Below, in pieces: positions 13,997-20,154 of a stretch of DNA of 64,000 nucleotides. The stretch spans positions 806,402-870,401 of the forward strand of contig NZ_SZWE01000001.1 of the NCBI RefSeq assembly GCF_009669325.1, read 5' to 3'. This DNA is from Roseovarius bejariae (GTDB lineage: Bacteria; Pseudomonadota; Alphaproteobacteria; Rhodobacterales; Rhodobacteraceae). Position 1 is the first letter of the stretch; every line of letters begins with the position of its first letter. Both the position numbers and the translations under genes were made by a program. Below the pieces are notes generated by a model that saw only the letters and a list, made by a program, of their open reading frames with translations, was not told the DNA's origin and made no database searches.

Positions 13997-15238
13997 ATGT
14001 CGGAAACGGTCACGATCCTCGGCGCCGGCATTGTCGGCATCTGCTCGGCGCTGTCGTTGCTGGAGCGCGGGCAGCGCGTGCGCCTGATCGACAGGGGCGA
14101 CCCGGGGCAGGAAACCTCCCTCGGGAACGCGGGCGTTGTCTCGCCATGGTCGATCATCCCGCAATCCACCCCGGGCCTCTGGCGGTCGATCCCCGGGATG
14201 ATCCTGTCGCGCAACAAGCCGCTTTCGGTGCGTGCCGGAACATGGCCCCGGATGATCCCATGGGGCCTGCGCCTTCTGGCGCAGGGCACCGAGGCGCGAA
14301 CGCGCCGCGCCGCCGAGGCGATGGACCATCTTTGCGCCCCTTCGATCGACCTTTACCACCGTCACCTTGCGGGCACCGGGCACGAGGGGTTGATCCGCGA
14401 CAGCCACTATATCCACGCCTTCCGCGATGAGGCCGCCGCGCGGGATGCGTTCGACAGCCTCGGCTATCGCATCCGCGCCGAGAAAGGCGCGCCGATGGAG
14501 GTCATCGACCATGCCGCACTCAAACGCATGGAACCGGCCATCGGCCCCGCTTATCGCGCGGCCATCACCATCGGCGCACAGGCGCGGTGCACCAACCCGG
14601 GACGCATGGGGCAGGTTCTGGCGCAAAAGGCCCGTTCCATGGGGGCCGAGATCATCCGTGACGAGGTGCAGGCCCTCACCGAAACCGAAACCGGCTGGCA
14701 TATCACCGGGCAGGCCCAAAGCTATGACGCCGCACAGGTCGTCATCGCCATGGGCGCTTGGTCGGCGGCGCTCTTGCGGCCGCTGGGTTATCGCCTGCCG
14801 CTGATGGCCGAACGGGGGTATCACATCGAATGCGAAAATCCGGGCGTCAGCCTTGAAAACTCGATCATGGACATGGACGGAAAATTCGTGGCCTCCAGCA
14901 TGGAGGGCGGGGTGCGCATTGCCGGTCAGGCCGAATTCGGCCCCGCCGAGGCGCCCCCCGACCCGCGGCGAAAAGGCATCCTCGCGCGACAGGCGCGCGA
15001 GGTCTTTCCCGACCTGAACGTTGCGCAAGCACGCTTCTGGATGGGCCGCCGCCCCTCCTTCCCAGACAGCCTGCCGGTGCTCGGCCCGTCCGGGCGGCAC
15101 AAGGGCCTGTACTTCTGCTTCGGGCATTCCCACTACGGGTTGATGATGGCGCCCAAATCCGGCGAGGTGCTGGCCGATCACCTGACCGGCACACGCCCCA
15201 ACCTGCCGCTTGCGGCCTACAGCGCCTCACGATTCTGA
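13997..15238 (+). CDS. DadA-like FAD-dependent D-amino acid dehydrogenase/oxidase
   Basis: 413 residues. An N-terminal dinucleotide fold (VTILGAGIVGICSAL, residues 5-19) is followed by an ETSLGNAGVVSP segment that matches the flavin region of DadA proteins. The C-terminal DSLPVLGPSGRHKGLYFCFGHSHYG is the second FAD contact of this superfamily. It starts 4 nt after the TRAP permease stop, so it belongs to that operon. The imported ligand may therefore be an amine or a D-amino acid oxidised here; this is inference. Its last 12 bases overlap the convergent GGDEF gene. Confidence 0.88.
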   Translation: MSETVTILGAGIVGICSALSLLERGQRVRLIDRGDPGQETSLGNAGVVSPWSIIPQSTPGLWRSIPGMILSRNKPLSVRAGTWPRMIPWGLRLLAQGTEARTRRAAEAMDHLCAPSIDLYHRHLAGTGHEGLIRDSHYIHAFRDEAAARDAFDSLGYRIRAEKGAPMEVIDHAALKRMEPAIGPAYRAAITIGAQARCTNPGRMGQVLAQKARSMGAEIIRDEVQALTETETGWHITGQAQSYDAAQVVIAMGAWSAALLRPLGYRLPLMAERGYHIECENPGVSLENSIMDMDGKFVASSMEGGVRIAGQAEFGPAEAPPDPRRKGILARQAREVFPDLNVAQARFWMGRRPSFPDSLPVLGPSGRHKGLYFCFGHSHYGLMMAPKSGEVLADHLTGTRPNLPLAAYSASRF

Positions 15239-16276
15239 GGGCGCTCTGGGTCCGATCCCCTGCGTGTGGCGAAGTGTGGGATCATAAACTACGTAACGCC
15301 CCCGCCCCCTGTCCTTGGCGGCATAAAGCGCGACATCGGCATCCTGCATCATCTGCTCGGGATCGACCCGGGCATATTCACAACTCAGGCTCGCGCCGAT
15401 GCTGGCCGAGACCCGGCATTCTTTTTCGCCGAAAGGGATGGGCCGCTCCAGCCGCGCGATCAGCCGCCCGGCGATTTCGGCCACGCGGTCGCGGTTGGTC
15501 AACCCGTCGAAGATCAACACGAATTCATCGCCACCCGTGCGGATGATCGTATCCTCGCCGCGCGTTTCGCTCACGATGCGGCGGGCCACCCGCTGCAAGA
15601 CATGATCCCCCGCAGCATGGCCCAGCGTGTCGTTCACCGATTTGAAATAATCCAGATCAAGCGCCATCAGGACGAAATCATGCTCGGTTTCCATCAACCG
15701 CTCCAACACGGGTTGCATGGCCCGGCGGTTCTTGAGCCCGGTCAGCGTATCGGTAAAGGCCTGTTCCTCGGCGGCGATCTTGGCGCCCTGCAATCGCAGG
15801 TTCAGCTTGCGCGACGCCTCCATCGCCGCCGATTTCGCCTCGATCAGGTAGAGCATTTCGATGGCAAGGTCGGTGGCCGCGAAATCGGCGCTGGTGAGGG
15901 TGAAATCGCGCACCGCCTCCATCACCGAAATCCCGAACGACAGGTTTACGACGGCACCGCCAGCCGGACCGAAACCGCCCTGCTCGGGCAGGCACACCAG
16001 CGTTCCTTTCAGGTCCGATTGCGGCCCGGTGCGCAACTGAAAATGCAGTTTCGCGCCCTCCGCCCGGCGCAGGGCCTCCATGCTGTCGCCCAGCTTGGGG
16101 CGCTTGAGCTCCAGCAGCTCCAGAAACCGCCGCCCCTCGGGCGGGGTCTCGGCCGCAAGCTTGGCAAAGGTCGGTCCGACATGCACCACATGCCCCGTGG
16201 CATTGAGCACCGCATGCATCGGGCACAGCACATCCAGAAGCGCATATAGCGCGGTCTCGTTCTGCTCATCTTTCAT
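15227..16276 (-). CDS. H-NOXA (HNOBA) domain diguanylate cyclase
   Basis: 349 residues making cyclic di-GMP. The N-terminal half (about 10-165) fits the H-NOX-associated PAS-like domain (FLELLELKRPKLGDSMEAL, LKGTLVCLPEQGG, then a helical linker to residue 185). The GGDEF domain (about 185-340) has an intact active site, RTGGDEFVLIF, and an intact inhibitory site R-G-E-D five residues before it. The start overlaps the H-NOX stop by 4 nt (ATGA), so they are co-translated and should interact. In known pairs, NO bound to H-NOX heme alters the partner enzyme. Here the H-NOX lacks its heme ligand, so the signal is unclear. Confidence 0.92.
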   Translation of the reverse strand: MKDEQNETALYALLDVLCPMHAVLNATGHVVHVGPTFAKLAAETPPEGRRFLELLELKRPKLGDSMEALRRAEGAKLHFQLRTGPQSDLKGTLVCLPEQGGFGPAGGAVVNLSFGISVMEAVRDFTLTSADFAATDLAIEMLYLIEAKSAAMEASRKLNLRLQGAKIAAEEQAFTDTLTGLKNRRAMQPVLERLMETEHDFVLMALDLDYFKSVNDTLGHAAGDHVLQRVARRIVSETRGEDTIIRTGGDEFVLIFDGLTNRDRVAEIAGRLIARLERPIPFGEKECRVSASIGASLSCEYARVDPEQMMQDADVALYAAKDRGRGRYVVYDPTLRHTQGIGPRAPSES

Positions 16277-16869
16277 CGCAGCTGCGCCCCCAGGTCAAAG
16301 GCCCGCCCCGAGGCAAAGGCCGCTTCCACCACCCGCACCTCGATGATTTCCCGATCCGCCCGCGTGCCCTTGTGTTCCAGAAAGACCAGCGCGCCATAAT
16401 CATCGGCCATGGCCCGCAAAAGCCCCATCATCACGCGCCCGAAGGCAATCCGTCCCTCCGGCATCGGCCCCACCGTCAGGCTGTAGTGGCCTCGGGCATG
16501 TTCCTCCAATTCCAACGGCGGCAGCACGAGGTCCGGCACCGCCAGCCGCGCGCGCCCCGGCAGATCATCCAGTGAATGCAGGAACTCCACGAAATCCAAC
16601 CCGCCAAACCGCAACAAGCGGCGCAACGCCTCAAGGTTGGGATGCGATACCAGATAGGTTCCGATATCCTCCAACACCTCGCCCAGCGGCTTTTTTAGCG
16701 TCAGCGCCAGTTCGCCCAGCACCTCAAGCGTGATCGCGTCGTCATAGGTCAGCATCGGCTCGAACTCGACAAACCCGAGGTCAAGCCTGTGCATGATCCC
16801 GTGCCATGTCTCGCGCCCATATGTATCGCGGGTGAATCGCTCCACCGCGCGGTTGGCCAAACCGTGCAT
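16273..16869 (-). CDS. H-NOX family protein lacking the proximal heme histidine
   Basis: 198 residues with the normal H-NOX length and layout: MHGLANRAVERF start, YDDAITLEVL, a helix into the heme-ligand region, then a C-terminal beta sheet. In heme-binding H-NOX proteins the sequence L-D-x-L-H supplies the iron ligand at about residues 102-105. Here it reads SLDDLPGRA, placing Pro104 at that position. The propionate-binding Y-x-S-x-R motif is also changed, to Y129-S-L-T-V. Both losses suggest it does not bind heme in the usual way. It is coupled to the H-NOXA-GGDEF gene by a 4-nt overlap and is divergent from the TPP-riboswitch operon. No stop or frameshift is seen, so it looks functional. 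Confidence 0.88.
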   Translation of the reverse strand: MHGLANRAVERFTRDTYGRETWHGIMHRLDLGFVEFEPMLTYDDAITLEVLGELALTLKKPLGEVLEDIGTYLVSHPNLEALRRLLRFGGLDFVEFLHSLDDLPGRARLAVPDLVLPPLELEEHARGHYSLTVGPMPEGRIAFGRVMMGLLRAMADDYGALVFLEHKGTRADREIIEVRVVEAAFASGRAFDLGAQLR

Positions 16870-16994
16870 TGCCCTCTCCGTACTGGCTGGCCCATCTTGG
16901 GCATGGCCCGGTTAAGAACTGCTGAACAAATAAAATCCGCCGCGTTTTCCTGCCCCCTTGCCGGGGCCAAGGCGCGCTGTTACACATCTGCCAT

Positions 16995-17085
16995 CCGTTG
17001 GGGTGCCCCCGTGATCCGGGGGCTGAGAGGCCACGCGCCAACCCACCGAACCTGATCCGGTCAGTACCGGCGGAGGGAACGGAGC
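16995..17085 (+). promoter_or_regulatory. TPP (THI-box) riboswitch
   Basis: The canonical elements are present in order: GGGGTGCCCC (P1/P2 side), the sensor core CTGAGAGG at 17023-17030, ACCC, then GAACCTGATC at 17048-17057, the P4/P5 part and GGAGGGAAC at 17072-17080. It precedes the thiamin-precursor operon starting at 17153, so high thiamin pyrophosphate should turn the operon off. No T-rich terminator follows, so control of translation at the AAGGAGG site (17141-17147) is more likely than transcription termination. Confidence 0.95.
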
Positions 17086-17152
17086 ATGTCACAAGGGCCC
17101 ATGGCCCCGTTGCGCCCCCTTCATCGCCTGACCCCAAGCCAAGGAGGCCACG

Positions 17153-18088
17153 ATGAAAGCCGCACTCACCCTCGCCGCCAGCCTGCTCACCGCCCTGCCC
17201 GCCATGGCGCAGGACCAGATGACGCTTGTTCTGGACTGGTTCGTCAATCCCAACCACGGCCCGATCATCGTGGCGCAGGAACAGGGCTATTTCGCCGACG
17301 AAAACCTCGAGGTCGAGGTGATCGCCCCCGCCGATCCCTCCGCCCCCCCCAAGATGGCCGCCGCGGGCAAGGCCGATCTGGCCATCTCGTACCAGCCGCA
17401 ACTGCACCTTCAGGTGGCCGAGGGCCTGCCGCTCAAGCGTGTCGGCACCCTCGTGGCCTCGCCGCTCAACTGCCTTCTCGTGCTTGAGGACGGCCCCATC
17501 GACAGCATGGCCGACCTCAAGGACGGCAAGGTGGGCTTTTCGGTCGCGGGCGTGGAAGAGGCGCTGCTCTCGGCGCTGCTTTCCGATGCCGGGCTGAGTT
17601 TCGACGACATCGAGTTGATCAACGTCAACTGGTCGCTCTCACCCTCGCTGATGTCCGGCCAGGTGGATGCCGTCATCGGCGCCTACCGCAACTTCGAACT
17701 GAACCAGATGGAACTGGAAGAGGTCGAAGGCCGCTGCATGTACATCGAGGAAATGGGCGTCCCCGCCTATGACGAGTTGATCTATGTCGCCAACCCCGAA
17801 ACCGCCGACATGGATCAGATCGCCCGCTTCCTGCGTGCCACCGAACGGGCCACGCAATATATCGTCAACCACCCGCAAGAGGCGTGGGAGGTCTTCTCGG
17901 GCACTTCGACCGAGCTGCAGGACGAGCTGAACGAAATGGCATGGGCCGACACGATCCCGCGCTTCGCCCTGCGTCCATCCGCGCTGGACCATGGCCGTTA
18001 CAAAGCCTTCAGCGCCTTCCTGGCCGAGGCCGGGTTGATCGACGCACCGCAAGCGGTCGAAGACCTGGCCATGGACCCCGCGCAATGA
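17153..18088 (+). CDS. thiY: ThiY-like thiamin-pyrimidine precursor binding protein (NMT1/THI5 family)
   Basis: 311-residue periplasmic protein. A signal peptide ends at AMAQ (residue 20) and is followed by the family hallmark LVLDWFVNPNHGPI, with later features VIAPADPSAPPKMAAAGKAD and LKDGKVGFSVAG. It binds formylaminopyrimidine or a related pyrimidine breakdown product and passes it to the ThiX-ThiZ transporter. The start has AAGGAGG 5 nt upstream. It is the first gene after the TPP riboswitch, and its stop overlaps the first TenA gene by 4 nt. Confidence 0.92.
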   Translation: MKAALTLAASLLTALPAMAQDQMTLVLDWFVNPNHGPIIVAQEQGYFADENLEVEVIAPADPSAPPKMAAAGKADLAISYQPQLHLQVAEGLPLKRVGTLVASPLNCLLVLEDGPIDSMADLKDGKVGFSVAGVEEALLSALLSDAGLSFDDIELINVNWSLSPSLMSGQVDAVIGAYRNFELNQMELEEVEGRCMYIEEMGVPAYDELIYVANPETADMDQIARFLRATERATQYIVNHPQEAWEVFSGTSTELQDELNEMAWADTIPRFALRPSALDHGRYKAFSAFLAEAGLIDAPQAVEDLAMDPAQ

Positions 18089-18762
18089 GCGATTACGGCC
18101 AAACCTTCGCGCTCTGGCGTGACGCAGCGGGCCAGCATTGGCCCGCCTACACACGGCACCGCTTTGTCGAGGGTCTGGGCGACGGCAGCCTGCCGCGCGC
18201 GGCCTTTCTTGATTACATGGTGCAGGATTACCTGTTTCTGGTGCATTTCTCCCGAGCTTGGGCGCTGGCGGTGACCAAGGCCGAAACCGTGGATGAAATG
18301 CGTCTCTGCGCGGCAACGGTGAACGCGCTGATCAACGACGAAATGGCCCTGCACATCCGCACCTGCGCCGATCTGGGCCTGACCGAGGCCGACCTCTTCG
18401 AGGCCGAGGAAAAGCCGCAGAACATCGCCTATACGCGCTACGTGCTGGATGCCGGGCACGCAGGCGACCTGCTTGACCTGCTGGCGGCCCTCGCCCCCTG
18501 CGTCATGGGATACGGCGAAATCGGCGCGCGCCTGAAGGGCGAGGCAACCTCGGAGAGTTACGCCGACTGGATCGCCACCTATGCAAGCGAGGACTATCAA
18601 CAGGTTTGCCGCGAGGTGGGCGCCCTGATCGACGCCGCCATCACCCGCCGCCTTGGCACGACACCACAGGACAGCCCCCGCTGGACGGCCCTGACCCAGC
18701 GCTTCACCACCGCCACGCGACTTGAAGTGGGGTTCTGGGACATGGGGCTGGAGGCGGCATGA
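18085..18762 (+). CDS. tenA: TenA, aminopyrimidine aminohydrolase (Cys type)
   Basis: 225 residues, all-helical TenA/THI-4 fold. It carries the catalytic cysteine of TenA_C enzymes at C139 (APCVMGYGEIG), plus the YLFLVHFSRAWALAV helix and D-Y near residues 43-49. TenA_C hydrolyses aminomethylpyrimidine to HMP for re-entry into thiamin synthesis. ATG 18085 overlaps the ThiY stop, and its own stop overlaps the ATPase start (ATGA). The gene is under the TPP riboswitch. Confidence 0.92.
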   Translation: MSDYGQTFALWRDAAGQHWPAYTRHRFVEGLGDGSLPRAAFLDYMVQDYLFLVHFSRAWALAVTKAETVDEMRLCAATVNALINDEMALHIRTCADLGLTEADLFEAEEKPQNIAYTRYVLDAGHAGDLLDLLAALAPCVMGYGEIGARLKGEATSESYADWIATYASEDYQQVCREVGALIDAAITRRLGTTPQDSPRWTALTQRFTTATRLEVGFWDMGLEAA

Positions 18763-19484
18763 CCGCCCCGGGCCTGACACTCTCGGGCAGCGCCAGCTTC
18801 GGCGAGACGCCGGTTTTCGGCCCGCTCACCCTCAACGTGCCAGCCGGGCAATGGACCTGCCTGCTCGGCCCGTCCGGCGTGGGCAAGACCACGCTCTTGC
18901 GCCTCGTCGCGGGGCTCGATGACCTGACGCATTTCGACGGCACGATCACCACAAGCGACGGCGCCCCCCTGCGGGGCCGCATTGCGCTCATGGCGCAGAG
19001 CGATCTGCTGATGCCGTGGCTTTCGGTGCTGGAGAATACCCTGCTGGGCGCCCGTCTGCGGGGCGAGACACCGGACAGGGACCGCGCCCGCGATGTGCTG
19101 GCGCGGGTGGGCCTGACCGACCATCAAGGCAAACGCCCCGGCGCCCTGTCCGGCGGGCAACGCCAGCGCGTGGCGCTGGCCCGCACCCTGATGGAGGACC
19201 GGCCGGTCGTCCTGCTGGATGAACCCTTCTCGGCGCTCGACGCCCGAACCCGCGCCGACATGCAGAACCTTGCCTGCGAACTTCTGACAGGCCGCACCGT
19301 CCTGATGGTCACCCACGACCCGGGCGAGGCCGCGCGCCTTGGCCACCGGATCACGATCATGGAAACCGGCGGCCTCTCGCCGGTCACGCCCCCGCCCGGC
19401 CCCGCGCCCCGCCCGGTGGACGATCCCGCCACCCTGCAAGCACAGGCCGCCCTGCTGAACCGCCTGCGCGACAGCGCCGCCTGA
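18759..19484 (+). CDS. thiZ: ThiZ-like ABC transporter ATP-binding protein
   Basis: 241 residues. Walker A GPSGVGKTT (about 35-43), Q-loop in IALMAQSDLLMPWLSV, signature LSGGQRQRVALAR, Walker B VVLLDEPFSALD and H-loop VTHD are all intact. It powers uptake through ThiX. The start overlaps the TenA stop by 4 nt. The gene lies between the two TenA-like genes inside the TPP-controlled operon. Confidence 0.92.
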   Translation: MTAPGLTLSGSASFGETPVFGPLTLNVPAGQWTCLLGPSGVGKTTLLRLVAGLDDLTHFDGTITTSDGAPLRGRIALMAQSDLLMPWLSVLENTLLGARLRGETPDRDRARDVLARVGLTDHQGKRPGALSGGQRQRVALARTLMEDRPVVLLDEPFSALDARTRADMQNLACELLTGRTVLMVTHDPGEAARLGHRITIMETGGLSPVTPPPGPAPRPVDDPATLQAQAALLNRLRDSAA

Positions 19485-19497
19485 AGGAGACACGCCC

Positions 19498-20154
19498 ATG
19501 CGCCCCACCGACCACCTGCGAAGCCTTGCCGCCGACGATTGGCAGGCCGCCACCCGGCACGGTTTCACCGATGCGCTGGCCGATGGCAGCCTGCCAAAGG
19601 ACAGGATGCTGACCTACCTGCAACAGGATTACCTTTTCGTCGAAGGCTTCGTGCGGCTGCTCGCCTCGGCCATCGCCCATGCCCCCAGCCTGCCCGACGC
19701 AATCCCGGCGGCGCAGTTCCTTGGCCTGATCTCGGGGCCGGAAAACACCTATTTCCTGCGCGCGATCGACACTTTGGGCGGCGATCCGGACACCCCCGCG
19801 CCCGCCGCCCCCGTCACCGCCGAGTTTCAGGCGCTGATGGCCCGGGCCGCGGGCTCGGGCCGCTACGAACAGATGCTCGCCGTGCTGGTCGTGGCGGAGT
19901 GGAGTTACCTCGACTGGGCCAGCCCCCATGCCGGGAAGGCCGCCGGCCTGCCGTTCTGGTTCGGCGAATGGATCACCCTGCATTCCGGCGCGGGTTTCGA
20001 AAGCGTCGTGGCCTACCTGCGCGACCAGCTCGACACTGCATGGCAAGACCTCGACGACACCGCCCGCCGCGCGGTGGAAGACACTTTCCGCCAAGGCGTG
20101 GCACTGGAACGCCGGTTCTTCGACGCGGCCTTGGCCGGGTTCGGGGCCGCATGA
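19498..20154 (+). CDS. second TenA-family protein (Glu type, no catalytic Cys)
   Basis: 218 residues with the TenA fold (QQDYLFVEGFVRLLASAI) but with no cysteine where the first TenA has C139: the matching helix reads LVVAEWSYLDWASP. This is the TenA_E pattern, in which a glutamate replaces the thiol. TenA_E proteins are proposed to act on formylated or other altered pyrimidines upstream of the TenA_C step. It has its own ribosome site, GAAGGAGA, before ATG 19498 and overlaps the permease gene by 4 nt. Confidence 0.88.
   Translation: MRPTDHLRSLAADDWQAATRHGFTDALADGSLPKDRMLTYLQQDYLFVEGFVRLLASAIAHAPSLPDAIPAAQFLGLISGPENTYFLRAIDTLGGDPDTPAPAAPVTAEFQALMARAAGSGRYEQMLAVLVVAEWSYLDWASPHAGKAAGLPFWFGEWITLHSGAGFESVVAYLRDQLDTAWQDLDDTARRAVEDTFRQGVALERRFFDAALAGFGAA

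Follow-up and report, generated by a model that had tools for sequence, protein, structure and literature searches.

A cyclase-paired H-NOX family of the Rhodobacteraceae in which the heme-ligand histidine is mostly replaced, seen from Roseovarius bejariae

Introduction

H-NOX proteins are taught as heme sensors of nitric oxide (NO) or O2, and the homologues considered here go by the database name "heme NO-binding." This article is concerned with an H-NOX protein that has proline at the position of the heme-ligand histidine. It is encoded in a stretch of 64,000 nucleotides from Roseovarius bejariae (contig NZ_SZWE01000001.1, positions 806,402 to 870,401; hereafter the window, from whose first base all coordinates are counted), where its gene overlaps that of a diguanylate cyclase. 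A paper of 2017 (PMC5588039) already states that the axial histidine is missing in R. sphaeroides and in P. denitrificans. What is added here is the dominance of the loss across a whole family, a pairing with the cyclase that is exceptionless in the sample, a histidine-bearing minority, and the covariation of other positions with the ligand. No family-wide description was found in the literature searched, in which coverage of the relevant papers was incomplete, and a survey of cyclic di-GMP genes in alphaproteobacteria (PMC9756655) contains none of six H-NOX and heme terms looked for.

The H-NOX and cyclase genes

The two genes lie on the minus strand, with the following features:

16273..16869 (-), H-NOX-fold (HNOB) protein of the Pro type, 198 aa (Pfam HNOB, AlphaFold2, Foldseek)
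16558..16560 (-), codon CCG of Pro104, the axial heme-ligand position (alignments and codon reading)
16459..16473 (-), V133-G-P135-M-P137, the positions of the Y-x-S-x-R propionate clamp, lost (alignment with canonical H-NOX)
16273..16276 (-), ATGA overlap of 4 bp between the H-NOX stop and the cyclase start (sequence reading)
15227..16276 (-), partner diguanylate cyclase, 349 aa (Pfam and orthologue alignment)
16025..16237 (-), weak H-NOXA (HNOBA)-like N-terminal part of the cyclase (17.2 bits, cut-off 23.4)
15299..15760 (-), GGDEF domain with a GGDEF motif and an RxxD I-site (GGDEF, 145 bits; motif census)

The 198-residue open reading frame (ORF) matches Pfam HNOB at 66 bits (cut-off 25.5), its sole match at E values up to 1, and a whole-genome search found this HNOB gene and no other. 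The initial annotation had read it as an H-NOX protein whose heme histidine is replaced by Pro104, and this is borne out: in phmmer alignments the heme histidine of Nostoc Alr2278 falls on Pro104, in agreement with the alignments to 24 canonical proteins. The clamp was also correctly called lost, albeit in the wrong register, for its Y, S and R align with V133, P135 and P137, and the Y-S-L-T-V that had been taken for it lies four residues upstream. Because both the axial histidine (Pro104) and the clamp (V-G-P-M-P) were looked for and neither is there, the protein is not classed as an H-NOX gas sensor. It contains no cysteine. A sequencing error at Pro104 was rejected, the same proline being present in a 94% identical protein from another record (P0001).

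The AlphaFold2 (AF2) model (predicted local distance difference test, pLDDT, 89; predicted template modeling score, pTM, 0.86) has as its top Foldseek match the Nostoc H-NOX structure 3tf8 (E 9.7e-12, template modeling scores 0.80/0.85), so that the predicted fold is that of an H-NOX. The model fits the NO-activated form of soluble guanylate cyclase more closely, but so does that of a histidine-type member, and this resemblance was not used as evidence.

Canonical H-NOX in the same family

Of 394 Rhodobacteraceae genomes (393 genera), 296 have a Pfam HNOB match. The score list, which reaches about E 7.6e-22, divides roughly in two, with 41 strong rows (to E 1.1e-32) and a weaker remainder; strong, canonical-type scores thus occur in 41 of the 394 genomes. 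Thirty strong loci were read. All 24 that could be aligned have both the histidine and YxSxR, and an ORF with histidine-kinase motifs accompanies 25 of the 30, a GGDEF ORF two (L002 and L011, in place of the kinase), and neither within about 1.5 kb the remaining three. Of 40 loci taken from the weaker group, 39 match the profile of the window protein's family; each of these 39 is followed by a GGDEF ORF, with the ATGA overlap in 21 of them (first start codon taken). The two kinds of protein therefore have the HNOB domain in common, whereas the canonical one has its histidine, its clamp and mostly a histidine-kinase neighbor, and the window protein has Pro104, no clamp and a GGDEF neighbor. L055 was rejected as a family member.

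Position 104 across the family

Of 159 genomes in the GTDB family Rhodobacteraceae, 112 had a match to a 22-member profile (A1). The 109 loci read, that of the window included, make up the census; G004 (canonical H-NOX only) and G030 and G061 (fragments) were left out. At position 104 they have P81, H8, N4, Q4, A3, T2, R2, G2, D1, K1 and E1, so the axial histidine is missing in 101 of 109. The full YxSxR is found in none of them, the histidine-bearing ones included. Every locus has a cyclase homologue directly downstream on the same strand, with GGDEF in all 109 and the RxxD I-site in 107. The interpretation given with the first reading is partly supported by the alignment proposed there, with Pro104 in 81 of 109, no clamp and the cyclase throughout. 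The pairing itself was called correctly, and holds as well in all 114 loci of a second set, some shared with the census, made of 30 loci from the genus, 4 from plasmids and 80 from named relatives. The H-NOXA label is less secure in the window, whose own cyclase gives the sub-threshold score listed above; nevertheless, 12 of 13 aligned cyclase orthologues, the window's included, match HNOBA at E values up to 1, the best at 5e-9. Several cyclase columns differ between partners of histidine and non-histidine proteins; these were set aside, relatedness being uncorrected there.

Proline also prevails closer to the window and in other samplings. The best 120 of 4826 homologues, together with the window protein, have Pro 117, Ala 2, Ser 1 and Gln 1; no histidine occurs among those 120, and the idea of an isolated mutant whose close relatives keep the ligand is thereby refuted. 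Within the genus the profile is matched by 39 of 40 genomes, one of them weakly over 51 residues, and position 104 is proline in 29 and alanine in 1 of the 30 loci read, window included. The named-relative set comprises the best 80 of 573 confirmed stretches matching the D. shibae protein and overlaps the census; since the best matches to that protein were kept, it is tilted to histidine-like members, and it has P47, H15, S7, A3, Q3, G2, K1, V1 and N1. Named examples with proline are Sulfitobacter sabulilitoris, Roseovarius aestuarii and Shimia abyssi, and with histidine Jannaschia donghaensis and Litoreibacter roseus. The window protein is therefore a real and conserved H-NOX-fold protein that lacks the usual heme-ligand histidine.

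The subfamily is confined to the Rhodobacteraceae at this sampling. Across the class, 7 of 289 genomes match the profile: three hold family members (the window's and two others, of its own family), and four hold weaker matches (L111-L114). L112-L114 have MH and YxSxR, as does L002, which represents the gene of L111, and no subfamily member was found outside the Rhodobacteraceae in these 289 genomes.

Three observations were made in passing. Cysteine is the most frequent residue at the clamp tyrosine site 133 (56 of 109), where it might be a ligand or a redox site in other members; the window protein has valine there. One congener has a second match, 32% identical and with one in-frame TGA (G691:C9:142223-142774). 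An apparent 754-residue fusion at L071 is an artefact of an upstream open frame, with the family start MHGIVNRS inside it.

Ancestry, covariation and selection

A 68-row tree places the family in one clade of 58 rows (support 100/99), which holds both the window protein and L051, the D. shibae copy; its nearest outgroup is L002, a canonical but cyclase-paired H-NOX. The distinct sub-branch of H-NOX signaling proposed at first thus exists as a single cyclase-paired clade; however, it is not defined by proline, 8 of the 109 census members having histidine, as does D. shibae Hnox.

A larger quick tree was built with 171 family and 5 outgroup rows, column 104 excluded; six fragmentary or divergent census rows (L180 and L182-L186), the window's own duplicate and 12 rows of identical sequence had been dropped. 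At the base of the family, the two deepest branches mostly bear histidine (3/3 and 3/4; supports there 82, 77, 43 and 86), and so does the outgroup. Parsimony gives nine changes for His104, or 29 losses if regain is barred. Read in this way, His104 is probably ancestral in the family, and where histidine occurs in a scattered way it may have survived late or been regained.

Two other positions go with the ligand. Tryptophan or histidine at 135, the serine site of the clamp, is found in 17 of 21 members with His104 vs. 22 of 150 others, and Ser8, which we take to be near the heme, in 19 of 21 vs. 38 of 150. When traits were simulated on the tree, none of 4000 runs was as extreme for either one (observed differences 0.66 and 0.65), the largest difference among the 15 control traits listed being 0.42. 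Because His104 co-occurs with Trp/His135 and Ser8, this suggests that histidine-bearing members keep a heme pocket and the others do not. No histidine column resembles a substitute ligand, and none is specific to Pro-types: His2 is found in 19, His76 in 13 and His98 in 13 of 21 His-types, vs. 107, 92 and 79, respectively, of 117 Pro-types. Position 104 itself is about as changeable as the median column (36 vs. 41 steps), compared to 8, 8 and 1 steps for positions 99, 103 and 106.

Selection on the family is purifying. Among 26 genus genes, the ratio of nonsynonymous to synonymous substitution rates (dN/dS) is 0.03-0.17 in 14 of the 15 pairs of lowest dS and 0.40 in the other; the window gene and its nearest relative differ by dS 0.73 and dN 0.12. 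Residues G70, R87, P117 and G149 are invariant in all 109 census members, while R84, R106, D156 and G159 are each kept in 108.

Relatives with known functions

The soluble guanylate cyclase alpha subunit has a heme-free H-NOX domain and remains part of a nucleotide cyclase. Within the clade itself, a characterized member is Hnox (Dshi_2815) of Dinoroseobacter shibae, the single H-NOX of that species, reported to inhibit the adjacent Dgc1 when NO-bound (PMC6473078, PMC7232146, PMC8846402). Genome G035, whose only HNOB match is locus L051, has a stretch of plasmid pDSHI01 of D. shibae at the same coordinates, 100% identical over 1263 bases. Since L051 lies inside the clade, the window gene shares its clade with a reported NO sensor. 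Both have the overlapping H-NOXA-GGDEF pair (HNOBA being sub-threshold in the window), and neither has the full YxSxR; unlike the window protein, D. shibae Hnox has His104, and Trp135 in the CIWHR found at its clamp. As this protein and the other histidine members also do without the full clamp, clamp loss alone is not proof that heme is absent.

P. denitrificans offers a further parallel. Its H-NOX (Pden_3719) likewise has no axial histidine and overlaps a GGDEF gene, dgcA (Pden_3720); in the copy from another strain, HAMBI_2443 (L218), position 104 is proline. It is 40% identical to the window protein, and mutants have been studied there, whereas the window gene is known from sequence alone. 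The hnoX mutant is described as partly deficient in biofilm, missing BapA and consuming NO faster, while a dgcAB mutant overproduced both biofilm and BapA, and Kumar and Spiro suggested that H-NOX inhibits DgcA (PMC5588039). Of the evidence that a ligand-less member is functional, this knockout is the strongest, and it also indicates which way the effect goes. H-NOX signaling without heme is also reported for a redox-sensing protein of Vibrio cholerae, through oxidation of cysteines (PMC7108781); the window protein has no cysteine.

The upstream element

Upstream of the H-NOX gene lies a further feature, conserved in position across the family:

16912..16926 (-), CtrA-like element TTCAGCAGTTCTTAA, starting 57 bases upstream of the start codon

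The upstream sequence could be used for 146 family genes. A TTAA-N7-TTAA-like element with at most two mismatches occurs within 250 bases upstream in 140 of these, vs. about 38 in letter-shuffled sequences, and with at most one mismatch in 31, vs. 3.7. When the search was limited to 150-30 bases upstream, the element lay 51-80 bases from the start in 128 of the 146, and the exact TTAA-N7-TTAA was found in none. Its first half is mostly TT(G)G, and the whole looks like a CtrA site of which one half is weak. Such a candidate would fit the published quorum-sensing control of D. shibae hnox/dgc1 and the published CtrA control of rcc02629, the cyclase gene beside the R. capsulatus homologue.

A regulatory subunit without its heme ligand?

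What could such a protein do for its cyclase? The reading that we favor, and hold to be probable as a whole, is that of a heme-ligand-less regulatory subunit of the diguanylate cyclase, descended from an NO sensor. The ancestor was probably heme-dependent, as reported for D. shibae Hnox. The axial histidine was then lost in most sampled lineages, the window's included, and mostly to proline, with positions 8 and 135 differing in step, and the fold, the conserved core and the cyclase pairing were all retained. The data show the loss of the ligand, the clade, the pairing, the purifying selection and the covariation; we infer that heme is absent, that the protein most likely binds the H-NOXA/signaling-helix part of the cyclase, and that cyclase activity would be held down without a histidine-ligated heme, its output being set by the abundance of the protein (through the CtrA-like promoter element) or by some other input. 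The inhibitory direction would follow by analogy from the published P. denitrificans knockout.

Several points weigh against this. Kumar and Spiro propose that NO does act through the P. denitrificans H-NOX, stimulating the inhibition of DgcA (PMC5588039). No heme measurement on any Pro-type was found in the literature; NO might still bind to a heme that the pocket alone keeps in place, and His2, present in 69 of the 81 census Pro-types, is a possible ligand. As for the partner, the cyclase encoded in the window scores below the curated cut-off for H-NOXA. The covariation comes from one quick tree whose deep support is weak, and 6 of 134 control traits also reached p<0.01; on well-supported branches there are only three independent pairs, too small a number for a decision (on average, Trp/His135 follows His104 in 1.6 of these 3 and runs opposite in 0.0). 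Finally, the idea that histidine is kept where NO is made found no support. An NO-forming nitrite reductase (nirK above cut-off, or nirS at E below 1e-90) was called in 11 of 21 histidine genomes (22 handles, one duplicate) and 22 of 58 others, which does not make the former significantly richer (p 0.31).

An NO-bound H-NOX can be five-coordinate, with no bond to histidine. It is thus conceivable, though in our view unlikely, that the window protein still binds heme and senses NO, with the heme held by the pocket or by a residue such as His2, whose frequency among Pro-types speaks for this. The window genome encodes a nirS-type nitrite reductase (PF02239, E 1.4e-146), so that the cell probably makes NO, and D. 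shibae Hnox is tabulated as a heme NO sensor despite missing the full clamp (PMC8846402). On the other hand, a ligand site that holds eleven residue types in the census, two positions that vary in step with histidine loss and the lack of any histidine column specific to Pro-types all argue against it. Slightly less likely again is a sensor of another kind, in which the vacated cavity would bind a different small molecule that sets cyclase activity. That the gene is a decaying relic of an NO sensor is highly improbable: ligand and clamp are indeed both lost, but dN/dS is well below 1, core residues are invariant, the cyclase is adjacent at every locus examined, and the P. denitrificans knockout has a reported phenotype (PMC5588039).

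To return to the regulatory subunit, a bolder version can be put forward, tentatively and with more doubt than belief, in which the Rhodobacteraceae turned their commonest H-NOX into a heme-independent sensor or cyclase subunit whose pocket reads a new signal, D. shibae being the ancestral exception. Since the commonest H-NOX sampled in the family lacks the ligand histidine, NO sensing deduced from annotation is doubtful for most of these genes. The natural variation between histidine and proline within one orthologous H-NOX-cyclase pair is at the same time a direct test of what the heme contributes, and a way to learn how the H-NOX fold controls a cyclase without it.

Neighboring sequence

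Beyond the pair, a thiamine pyrophosphate (TPP) riboswitch lies on the opposite strand (16989-17095 (+), Rfam RF00059, 67.2 bits), apparently ahead of a thiamine-precursor ATP-binding cassette (ABC) transport cluster that runs from 17153 on and was annotated by eye. Two ORFs of this cluster, likewise judged by eye to be TenA-like (17884-18762 and 19498-20154 (+)), flank an ABC ATPase ORF at 18759-19484.
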